This document shows, one piece after another, positions 31,649-34,829 of a stretch of DNA of 64,000 nucleotides. Position 1 is the stretch's first letter. The number at the start of each line of letters is the position of its first letter. The DNA comes from Desulfocicer vacuolatum DSM 3385 (lineage in GTDB: Bacteria; Desulfobacterota; Desulfobacteria; Desulfobacterales; Desulfobacteraceae), in NCBI RefSeq assembly GCF_900176365.1, contig NZ_FWXY01000024.1, positions 1 to 64,000 of the forward strand, read 5' to 3'. The translations under genes and the position numbers were made by a program. A model generated the notes under the pieces. It saw nothing but the letters and a program-made list of their open reading frames with translations. It made no database searches and was not told the DNA's origin.

Positions 31649-32674
31649 TTATGAAATTATAATTGTTTCCCGGCCCAGCCGGGAATCTGTTTTTACGGTG
31701 AAATTACTCCGGGGATATTTTGATTGCAATATTTTCATATTATGATTTTTATCCCCCCGGAGCCGGGAGTGGGATGCCGGATGTACGGTCAAGATGAGCT
31801 GTTCCGGCACGGTCATGGGGTATTTTTTCTCAATTTCATCCAATGTTCTGTCAAGAAATAATTCCGAAAAAACCAGATGTCCAAAGGCCGGATGCCAGGG
31901 TCCTGCCACCATGGATTGGGGGTCCTGGAGAAGATCCGAGGCCTGGAGACCCATGCGTATCACCGGGATTTTGTGTTGGTTGAATATTTTGTACAGCTCT
32001 TTCACCAGGGTGACGCTTTCAGATAATTCCATGGGGATATACCGGCCCTGGCGATACCACCGGGTCATCACACTTCCCTCAAGTACAATTAAAGGGTATA
32101 TGCGCATGAAATCCGGTTTTAAACGGCAGATGGCCTCAGCCGTTTCAAGGGCCGTGCGAAAGGTATCACCGGGGAGCCCCACCATCATCTGCATGCCGGT
32201 GTGAATACCATATGCCTTGAGAATACCGGCAGCATTCTTGGTATCTTCCCGGGTGTGACCCCGGCGGGCCTGTGCTAAAACCCGGTTGTCCATGGATTGA
32301 ACCCCCAGCTCCACAGTGGTTAAATCATAGTTTTTAATGGCCCCAAGAATTGATTCAGAGATGGTATCCGGCCGGGTGGAGCATCTAACATCGTCAATTT
32401 TTCCTTCATTTACCAATTGCTTTGCACATTCCAGAAGATCCACAATTTTTTCTTGGGGAAGCCCCAGAAAATTGCCGCCAAAGAAAGCCAGTTGCACCTG
32501 ACGTCGTTTCCCCTTAAATTCCAGGAAACGATTCACCTCTTTTTCAATGAAGTCGGCATCGGGCAGGGGATGGCTTTGGCTGGTGATGATGGATTGATTG
32601 CAAAAGGCACATTGGTGTGGGCAACCGGAATGGGGGATGAAAATGGGGATGACCAGGGGTTTTTCAGAGCGCAT
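31649..32674 (-). CDS. Radical SAM protein, Elp3/YhcC-like
   Basis: A 341-residue radical SAM enzyme. The cluster motif is CPHQCAFC near residue 18. The following segments FFGGNFLGLP, RPDTISESIL, VELGVQSMDNRVLAQARRGHT and GMQMMVGLPGDT match the Elp3/HemN-type radical SAM core, with a C-terminal extension typical of radical_SAM_C proteins. Candidates are a tRNA or protein modification enzyme; the substrate is unknown. It starts 3 bases after the PHP-RNase III gene, so it is the third gene of an operon dksA, PHP-rnc, radical SAM. Confidence 0.85.
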   Translation of the reverse strand: MRSEKPLVIPIFIPHSGCPHQCAFCNQSIITSQSHPLPDADFIEKEVNRFLEFKGKRRQVQLAFFGGNFLGLPQEKIVDLLECAKQLVNEGKIDDVRCSTRPDTISESILGAIKNYDLTTVELGVQSMDNRVLAQARRGHTREDTKNAAGILKAYGIHTGMQMMVGLPGDTFRTALETAEAICRLKPDFMRIYPLIVLEGSVMTRWYRQGRYIPMELSESVTLVKELYKIFNQHKIPVIRMGLQASDLLQDPQSMVAGPWHPAFGHLVFSELFLDRTLDEIEKKYPMTVPEQLILTVHPASHSRLRGDKNHNMKILQSKYPRSNFTVKTDSRLGRETIIIS

Positions 32675-32677
32675 GGA

Positions 32678-34345
32678 TTATTCCCGGCACACATTGTTGT
32701 CGCAATTTTGTGCACTGTCTTGCCCGTTGGATTGGGTCGGGGGATTATCCGATGTGAGGATTTTTCTTTTTTTCAGGTGCTTCAAAGCCTTTTGGGCAGC
32801 ATCCTGCTCTGCTGCTTTTTTGCTTTTTCCCATGCCTGTGGCCTGGATGTCGCACACCTTTAATTTGACCTCAAATGTTTTGGCATGGTCCGGTCCCTGT
32901 TCTCCACAAACCGCATAGCGAGGCGCTGTTTCACCCATTTCCTGGACGTATTCCTGTAAAAGGCTTTTATGGTCATCCACCACAGTGGCACTGCTGGAAA
33001 TATGGGCCACCTCGTCCTGGAAAAGGTCTTTGATCAGATGGGCGGTTTGGATAAATCCAAGGTCGAGATAGATGGCCGCCATCACCGCTTCAAAGGTGTC
33101 GGCAAGGATGGAGTTTTTTTCTGCACCGCCGGAGAGCCACTCGCCTTTGCCAAGGGAAATAAATCGTCCCAGATCAATTTTCCTGGCCATGGTTGCAAGG
33201 CCGGGTTCGCTGACCAGACCTGCCCGCATCTTGGACAGATCCCCTTCCTTCATTTCCGGGGCCTGCTCCATGAGAAATTCACCAATAACAAGACCCAGCA
33301 CCGCATCTCCCATGAATTCCAGGCGCTGGTTGTCACAAAGGGTTACGTCCTGGGATTCGTTCACATAGGAGCTGTGGCGCAGGGCCGTGGCCAGAAGTTC
33401 TTTGTCAGTGAAGGTGTGACCCAGGTTTTCTTCAAGGATTTCCAGGGCCGCCGGGGATTTGTGAAGATCAGCCACGGCATTGGAAAGGTTTTCAAACAGA
33501 TGGCATGGGATATGAAGATTTCCAGTGCCCCTGCCCATCTGCACTTCAGGTTTCATATCGCCATGGAAATCAGATCCTCCGGTGACCAGCAGGCCTCTGT
33601 TTTGGGCCATTTTTTCAAAATACCGGGTCTGTTCTTCCGAATGATCCGTGTGGTGGGCTTCAATGCCGTCAAGTCCCATGGCCACAAGATCATCAATGAG
33701 CTCTCCCATGGGGTAGGTGTCTGGGGGGGAAATAAGTCCCGGATGGGCCAGAACAGCAACGCCTCCGGCCCTTTTGATAAGCTGTATGGCGTCTTGGCAG
33801 GAGAGTCTTGCCTTATCCACATGGGCCGGTCGACCGGTGGCAAGGTAACGGTCAAATGCTTCATCAAAGGTGGCCACCACGTTTTTTTCCATCAGAGCAA
33901 GGGCAATGTGGGGACGTCCCATCTGGCCGTTGCCACAGATTTTTTCAACATCCCCAAGGGAAATATCGATGCCTGTCTGTTGAAGTTTTTCTATGATCCG
34001 GGGGTTTCGGTTTTCCCGGGCCTGCTGCAGGGTTTCCAGGGTTTTGTGCAGGAAATTATCATAAATACTGAACCCATAGCCCAGAATATGAAAACTGCCT
34101 CCTCCGTTCATGCGGTCAAGGGGGCTTGCACTGATCTCGATGCCGGTCATGAATTCAAGGGACTGGGGAATGCCGGTGTCCATGACCCGGCACACCCCGT
34201 CTATGGTATCGTGATCGGCAATGGCAATGGCCTTAAGTCCCAGCTCCCGGGCCTGATCCACAATTTCTTCCGGGCTGCAGGTGCCATCCGAGGCACTGGA
34301 GTGAATATGAAGGTCGATCACGGGTATGCTGTCCTTAAATACCAA
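32678..34345 (-). CDS. PHP phosphoesterase domain fused to ribonuclease III
   Basis: A single 555-codon frame encoding two enzymes. Residues about 9-285 are a PHP domain of the YciV/TrpH (RNase AM) type: DLHIHSSASDG (His13, His15, Asp20), IADHDT (His45), GIEIS (Glu70), LAHPG (His201) and SDFHGD (Asp259, His261), so the metal ligands appear complete. Residues about 300-450 are the RNase III nuclease domain, with NQRLEFMGDAVLGL (Glu343, Asp347) and DTFEAVMAAIY (Asp416, Glu419). A dsRNA-binding domain follows (about 458-525, ending MGKSKKAAEQDAAQKAL). The start is TTG at 34345, overlapping the dksA stop; GTG at 34321 with AAGGA upstream is an alternative. The linker has no stop or frameshift. 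Confidence 0.9.
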   Translation of the reverse strand: MVFKDSIPVIDLHIHSSASDGTCSPEEIVDQARELGLKAIAIADHDTIDGVCRVMDTGIPQSLEFMTGIEISASPLDRMNGGGSFHILGYGFSIYDNFLHKTLETLQQARENRNPRIIEKLQQTGIDISLGDVEKICGNGQMGRPHIALALMEKNVVATFDEAFDRYLATGRPAHVDKARLSCQDAIQLIKRAGGVAVLAHPGLISPPDTYPMGELIDDLVAMGLDGIEAHHTDHSEEQTRYFEKMAQNRGLLVTGGSDFHGDMKPEVQMGRGTGNLHIPCHLFENLSNAVADLHKSPAALEILEENLGHTFTDKELLATALRHSSYVNESQDVTLCDNQRLEFMGDAVLGLVIGEFLMEQAPEMKEGDLSKMRAGLVSEPGLATMARKIDLGRFISLGKGEWLSGGAEKNSILADTFEAVMAAIYLDLGFIQTAHLIKDLFQDEVAHISSSATVVDDHKSLLQEYVQEMGETAPRYAVCGEQGPDHAKTFEVKLKVCDIQATGMGKSKKAAEQDAAQKALKHLKKRKILTSDNPPTQSNGQDSAQNCDNNVCRE

Positions 34346-34697
34346 GGGCTTTTTCCATCATTTCTTCCCTGGTTTTGCATTCAATGCACTGGGTGGTCAC
34401 CGGGCGGGCCTTCAGTCGTGCCGGGGAAATATCATCTCCACAGGTTTCACAGATACCAAAGGTGTTATTTTCAATGCGAATCAATGCTTTTTTAACTTTT
34501 TTGATGAGCTTATGTTCCCGGTCTCTGATTCTGAGCTCAAAATTGCGTTCTGATTCGTGGGAGGCCCGGTCCGTGGGATCTGCAAAATTGTCCTTGGGAA
34601 GTGTCATTCCGGTTACAGTGGTATCAGCATGGGAAAGCAGATCATTGAGTCTTTCTGTCAAAAGTTCTTTAAAAAACTGTATCTCTTTTTCTTCCAT
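34335..34697 (-). CDS. dksA: DksA/TraR-type zinc-finger transcription factor
   Basis: A 120-residue DksA-like protein that would bind RNA polymerase through the secondary channel. It starts at the ATG at 34697 with AAGGAT upstream; the frame is open further but without a ribosome binding site. The coiled-coil region contains MTLPKDNFADPTDRASHESE, with the acidic tip residues of DksA-type proteins, and the zinc finger is CETCGDDISPARLKARP...CIEC. Slightly shorter than E. coli DksA (151). Its stop overlaps the start of the PHP-RNase III gene, so RNA metabolism and stringent-type control are in one operon. Confidence 0.9.
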   Translation of the reverse strand: MEEKEIQFFKELLTERLNDLLSHADTTVTGMTLPKDNFADPTDRASHESERNFELRIRDREHKLIKKVKKALIRIENNTFGICETCGDDISPARLKARPVTTQCIECKTREEMMEKALGI

Positions 34698-34829
34698 GGT
34701 TCTATCCTTCGACTTTGGGTTGCTTCTGATCAGATTAAAAATAACAGATTCAAATTTTCGGGTTTGATTCCGGTGAACCAAGGATGCAATGCCGCCGCGT
34801 CAGTTGCCGGAGCCAATCTCCATCTTTAA

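Follow-up and report, generated by a model that had tools for sequence, protein, structure and literature searches.

A PHP–RNase III fusion protein conserved in Desulfobacteraceae and its fairly likely role in cutting and trimming RNA

In Escherichia coli, RNase III is encoded apart from the PHP-family 5′ exonuclease RNase AM (separate rnc and rnm genes). Here we describe a gene of Desulfocicer vacuolatum DSM 3385 in which a PHP domain, an RNase III catalytic domain and a double-stranded RNA-binding domain (dsRBD) lie in one uninterrupted frame. The gene is located in a 64,000-nt stretch of contig NZ_FWXY01000024.1 (the window), and matches to Pfam and TIGR02191 bear out the domain order proposed in the initial annotation. 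We searched 98 genomes, 59 of them from the family of the window (its own genome included), and found the same architecture, sought across Desulfobacterota, in 52 of these 59. We conclude that the PHP–RNase III protein is a real and conserved architecture assembled from two known enzyme families and that, judged from its sequence, a cut-and-trim role is fairly likely. None of the open-access papers listed by our searches describes such a protein by title or start of abstract, nor is one named by title among the 50 Foldseek PDB matches listed. A conserved gene pair that occurs both apart and fused suggests that RNase III cutting and 5′ trimming are functionally linked in sulfate reducers; the fused form would provide a single-protein system for the direct hand-over of an RNase III product to a 5′ exonuclease, and hints at a function for the many PHP proteins in which the 5′-phosphate pocket of RNase AM is kept and its Arg201 is missing.

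The frame spans 32678–34345 on the minus strand and, counted from a TTG, runs through 555 codons without interruption. The 555-residue protein described earlier therefore corresponds to a genuine open frame, but translation probably begins at a GTG (residue 9), giving 547 residues (Table 1). This start is preferred because it lies immediately before the conserved IDLHIHS motif and because a possible start codon occurs there in 50 of the 54 fused genes that we collected; an AAGGA sequence (34336–34332), overlapping the dksA stop, lies 10 nt upstream of it. Roughly 13 residues separate the aligned PHP and RNase III parts of the fusion proteins. A check of this linker found neither a frameshift nor a stop, and independently assembled relatives have this frame unbroken as well, which rules out an assembly join as the origin of the fusion. 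Within the 45-codon junction stretch, the window gene contains no candidate internal start for RNase III, and a candidate is absent from 39 of the 54 fused genes; in the other 15, a candidate with a 4-of-5 ribosome-site match lies near the junction, a count that has no shuffled control. A conserved internal start for the RNase III half is thus not evident from the sequences.

Table 1 Features of the PHP–RNase III locus in the window
Feature	Position	Strand	Details
PHP–RNase III fusion gene	32678..34321	-	Probable GTG start 34321, stop 32678-32680; 547 aa
Alternative start TTG	34345	-	Inside dksA
PHP domain, RNase AM / nucleoside-bisphosphatase type	33530..34321	-	Residues 9-272 (555-aa numbering)
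Interdomain junction	33437..33529	-	Residues 273-303
RNase III catalytic domain	33026..33436	-	Glu343, Asp347, Asp416, Glu419
dsRBD	32774..32968	-	Pfam dsrm
dksA	34335..34781	-	13 nt upstream of fusion gene; TIGR02420 135.7 bits, above cut-off
Radical SAM gene, Elp3/HemN-like superfamily	31649..32674	-	3 nt downstream of fusion gene

The C-terminal half scores 231.9 bits with the NCBIfam RNase III family TIGR02191 (residues 304–524), above the cut-off of 166.25, and Pfam places Ribonucleas_3_3 at residues 314–440 (7e-35) and dsrm at residues 460–524 (5.1e-16). The four acidic residues listed in Table 1, which we take to be the catalytic acidic residues of RNase III, are invariant in 54/54 fused proteins. 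Like bacterial RNase III (rnc, TIGR02191), the fusion thus has a complete catalytic domain, the four acidic residues and a dsRBD; it differs in having some 290 residues of PHP enzyme at its N terminus, whereas the bacterial RNase III chains listed from the PDB (1o0w to 1i4s) comprise 147–252 residues. A search of the window genome (98% complete, 80 contigs) with PF14622 identified a single RNase III domain, that of the fusion gene, and no separate rnc. Likewise, none of the 52 fusion genomes has a separate RNase III match among the matches listed (to about 4e-23). On these sequence matches, we identify the C-terminal half as the RNase III of the cell.

The PHP half (Pfam PHP, residues 11–148, 3.6e-12) keeps a complete three-metal site. 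All the active-site residues that the initial annotation had named are present and invariant in the 54 fused proteins, including His13, His15, Asp20, His45, Glu70, His201, Asp259 and His261 of the PHP domain; that list had omitted the metal ligand equivalent to His83 of RNase AM, which is also present. Counted by the residues of the RNase AM family (Rnm), the metal ligands His13, His15, Asp20, His45, Glu72, His83, His198, Asp255 and His257 are kept in 54/54, as are Arg107, Arg110, Arg141 and Phe161, which form the 5′-phosphate and base pocket of Rnm according to PMC9410882. The PHP half therefore resembles RNase AM (E. coli YciV; 7ug9, 9etk) in fold, metal ligands and pocket, but differs in two respects. 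Its score against the Rnm family NF047791 is 160.4 bits, below the equivalog cut-off of 375 (E. coli Rnm scores 505.9 bits), and the position of Rnm Arg201 is occupied by Leu (38), Ile (15) or Ser (1) in the 54 proteins. Arg201 of Rnm bridges a bound sulfate and is also present in 2yb1 and 9etk. The two proteins differ in context as well: E. coli RNase AM is a free-standing protein of 293 residues whose gene lies beside yciO, whereas the PHP domain of the window is fused to RNase III.

A second known enzyme is also close. The PHP half scores 186.9 bits against the 3′,5′-nucleoside bisphosphatase family NF041577 (cut-off 400), so that it ranks this family above Rnm with both scores under their cut-offs, and one unfused relative from the order and one from the phylum rank the two families in the same way. 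CV1693 (2yb1), from this best-scoring NCBIfam family, was aligned across 291 columns by the fold search, with 30% identity; it is a separate protein and keeps the Arg (in HPGR) that the window PHP half lacks. In PMC9410882, CV1693 and RNase AM are described as having one common active-site design, and for this reason the two are not separable by sequence. From such comparisons, an RNase AM function of the PHP half is putative. The PHP half might instead be a nucleotide phosphatase acting on pAp or another 3′,5′-bisphosphate, or a short-oligonucleotide nuclease that clears what remains at the end of RNA decay; its fusion to RNase III would then serve shared expression or location rather than action on the same RNA end. 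The family ranking, shared by the unfused relatives, the common active-site design and the missing Arg201 all speak for this reading. The fully kept 5′-phosphate pocket speaks against it, if weakly, as PMC9410882 gives the AMP-contacting residues as common to CV1693 as well; moreover, a free-nucleotide phosphatase gives no reason for a tie to rnc specifically. On balance, we consider the phosphatase reading unlikely. The combination of a kept pocket with an absent Arg201 is not peculiar to the fusion, as it is found at 80/80 loci (12 of them labelled Bacillota) among the best 80 of 587 confirmed candidates from a scan of a species-genome collection with the PHP alignment.

If the window genome has an RNase AM, the fused PHP domain is the better candidate. 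At E ≤ 1e-5, the Rnm model identifies two PHP proteins, the fusion (162 bits) and a protein encoded on contig 39 (78 bits; locus L002, 1501–2328). The latter keeps the metal ligands but is altered at two pocket positions, where Arg110 is replaced by Glu and Phe161 by Ile. The genome also contains one RNase J gene (601 bits) and two RNase E/G genes. RNase J is an enzyme of 5′ trimming, and RNase J and the two RNase E/G proteins could process rRNA 5′ ends without the PHP half.

Purifying selection acts on both halves of the fusion. Across 12 close pairs, dN/dS is 0.07–0.22 for the PHP half and 0.07–0.17 for the RNase III half, with the PHP value the higher in 10/12. These ratios, together with the invariant metal ligands and pocket, argue that the PHP half is kept as an enzyme, slightly less constrained than the RNase III half. 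In a single-chain AlphaFold2 model (built with 24 of the 54 fused sequences; pLDDT 87.1, pTM 0.75, with the tail at residues 525–547 below 50), the helix that ends the PHP domain almost touches the one with which RNase III begins. The top Foldseek matches of the model in the PDB are 3e0f (a PHP phosphoesterase), 9etk (Vibrio cholerae RNase AM) and 7r97 (E. coli RNase III).

Within the family, 51 genomes were read as a single fused frame, and one more (G028) was counted from a match over residues 7–526 in one open frame. Seven of the fusion-bearing genomes are single contigs, and a fusion protein identical to that of one collected locus (L031) is encoded by an isolate, Desulfospira joergensenii DSM 10085. 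Identity to the window protein is 49–60% in 20 aligned family members. Seven family genomes are without a counted fusion: in one (G024) the gene is split over two contigs, in another (G045) there is a fragment (residues 8–121), and four (G005, G039, G044 and G048) have no RNase III match among the matches listed and score, at best, as the separate PHP type does. The seventh, G011, retains the order dksA–rnc–radical SAM gene (L100, 1117–2216) with the PHP half absent, and any PHP match it has is of the weaker, separate type only; it is the one unfused locus among the 52 fetched from the family. The PHP half has apparently been lost naturally in this genome, and the coupling of PHP and RNase III is thus dispensable there. 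One of the fusion genomes (G049; 72% complete, 4% contaminated) has two different full-length fused copies, on contigs 339 and 222, which may reflect a mixed bin or a duplication.

Outside the family, the two domains are mostly encoded by neighbouring genes. Of the 39 genomes that belong to the order but to other families, we fetched 36 (all but G065, G069 and G090): two are fused (G095 and G096), 30 have PHP and rnc as adjacent separate genes, and the one-gene stretches hold rnc only (G059, G063 and G071) or, at a contig end, PHP only (G060). Further genomes of the order added one fusion (G130) and one adjacent pair (G194). Separate coding in related genomes, combined with an assembly join in the window, had been named as grounds against the fusion; the first holds in these families, but the fusion is real. 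In all 31 unfused adjacent pairs, PHP precedes rnc on the same strand. In other orders of the phylum, rnc was found beside PHP at 0/26 loci, with flanks of at most 1.5 kb and some shorter at contig ends. The best 80 of the 587 scan candidates comprise 13 fused loci, 25 adjacent pairs and 42 stretches without rnc, some of which end too soon to judge; in eight of the 80, the PHP domain is identical to one from our set of relatives. Four loci labelled Desulfobacterales (L159, L164, L167 and L199) have no rnc despite 2–3.5 kb of downstream sequence, so that the linkage is not universal under this label. Named organisms with the fusion are Desulfospira joergensenii DSM 10085, Desulfamplus, Desulfobacula, Desulfatibacillum sp. 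MAG7 and Desulfobacteraceae Eth-SRB1, and none of the best 80 of 587 PHP loci is a fusion outside the labels Desulfobacterales or Deltaproteobacteria only.

The fusion probably arose at least twice. In a tree of 85 rows, each joining the PHP and RNase III domains of a locus, the 51 family fusions fall into a single starred clade, and the fused and unfused states require three changes; in a tree that includes the named loci, with the family thinned to 16 rows, there are four changes, two of which are forced by starred branches. Approximately unbiased (AU) tests of a single origin are divided. A single origin is rejected (p = 0.0001) when the set is pruned to 28 rows, which were picked after the tree was seen and in which the only fusions are those of the family and the Eth-SRB1 pair; there, the Eth-SRB1 pair groups with the unfused Candidatus Desulfaltia (99/97). 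It is not rejected with 54 fused of 85 rows (p = 0.426) or with 22 fused of 76 rows (p = 0.237).

The step from pair to fusion is a small one. In 4/31 unfused pairs (L066, L071, L080 and L091), PHP and rnc are in register with exactly one stop between them, and a single in-frame stop alone thus separates the genes; these four come from four different families of the order. The same state occurs at 7/25 unfused loci of the best 80 of 587 scan candidates, a set that overlaps the 31 pairs by at least one locus. Such proximity invites the reading that the fusion is a neutral by-product, one stop codon having been lost between neighbours whose halves still work alone, to which G011 (without its PHP half) and the greater frequency of unfused pairs across families would lend weight. 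We regard neutrality as rather improbable, however, in view of the 51/52 fetched family loci that keep the fusion, although the 20 aligned members share only 49–60% identity with the window protein, of the probable recurrence of the fusion, and of the linkage of PHP and rnc across dozens of families, in itself a sign of a common process.

RNase III acts as a dimer and leaves 5′-monophosphates. With confidence just past even, we propose that the fusion is a bifunctional ribonuclease, in which an RNase III cut is followed by 5′ trimming by the PHP half. The RNase III half would dimerise and cleave RNA stems on both strands, producing 5′-monophosphate ends; the PHP half, acting as a three-metal 5′-to-3′ phosphodiesterase of the RNase AM type, would take these 5′-phosphate ends and remove a few extra nucleotides. 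Its substrates would be rRNA precursors and probably other RNase III products, and with both activities on one protein, cutting and trimming could take place in a single encounter with the RNA. We infer dimerisation, the exonuclease activity of the PHP half, hand-over from site to site and rRNA as the main substrate. In PMC10250234, RNase AM is named beside RNase III and RNase T in the processing of the E. coli 23S leader–trailer helix; PMC9410882 describes RNase AM as degrading 5′-phosphate RNA, processively on a 40-mer, and as removing FAD caps. The conserved fusion, the kept RNase AM site and the E. coli 23S pathway together make coupled cleavage and 5′ trimming the likeliest meaning of the architecture.

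The coupling put forward in the initial annotation accordingly holds in part: the fusion is conserved and the RNase AM ligands and pocket are kept, but the PHP half falls under the Rnm cut-off and lacks Arg201. We word cut-then-trim conditionally because the PHP half scores under both family cut-offs without this arginine and because RNase J could do the trimming instead. The PHP-less G011 and the 26 PHP loci of other orders, none with rnc in the flanks, also count against it, as do the two AU tests that do not reject a single fusion. A more specific version, that the fusion is a single-polypeptide rRNA maturase that cuts precursor stems, trims the new 5′-phosphate end to the mature position and was assembled more than once from a standing PHP–rnc pair, is offered tentatively, as somewhat short of an even chance. 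In this version, the fusion would possibly also be a processive destroyer of structured RNA. On the 16S–23S contig of the window genome, the rRNA leader reads N in the supplied sequence, and ARAGORN reported no tRNA on the contig as supplied, where stretches of N could hide tRNAs.

The window has the same genes in the same order as the dksA–PHP–rnc–radical SAM cluster of Desulfobacterales, in fused form. Upstream, dksA lies on the same strand at 53/54 fused and 30/31 unfused loci, both misses being contig ends; downstream, a radical SAM gene is found at 52/54 fused and 26/31 unfused loci. Every NCBIfam match shown for the radical SAM protein of the window scores under its cut-off. Across the 85 loci, the radical SAM protein adjoins rnc in 78, and it may be an RNA-modifying partner.
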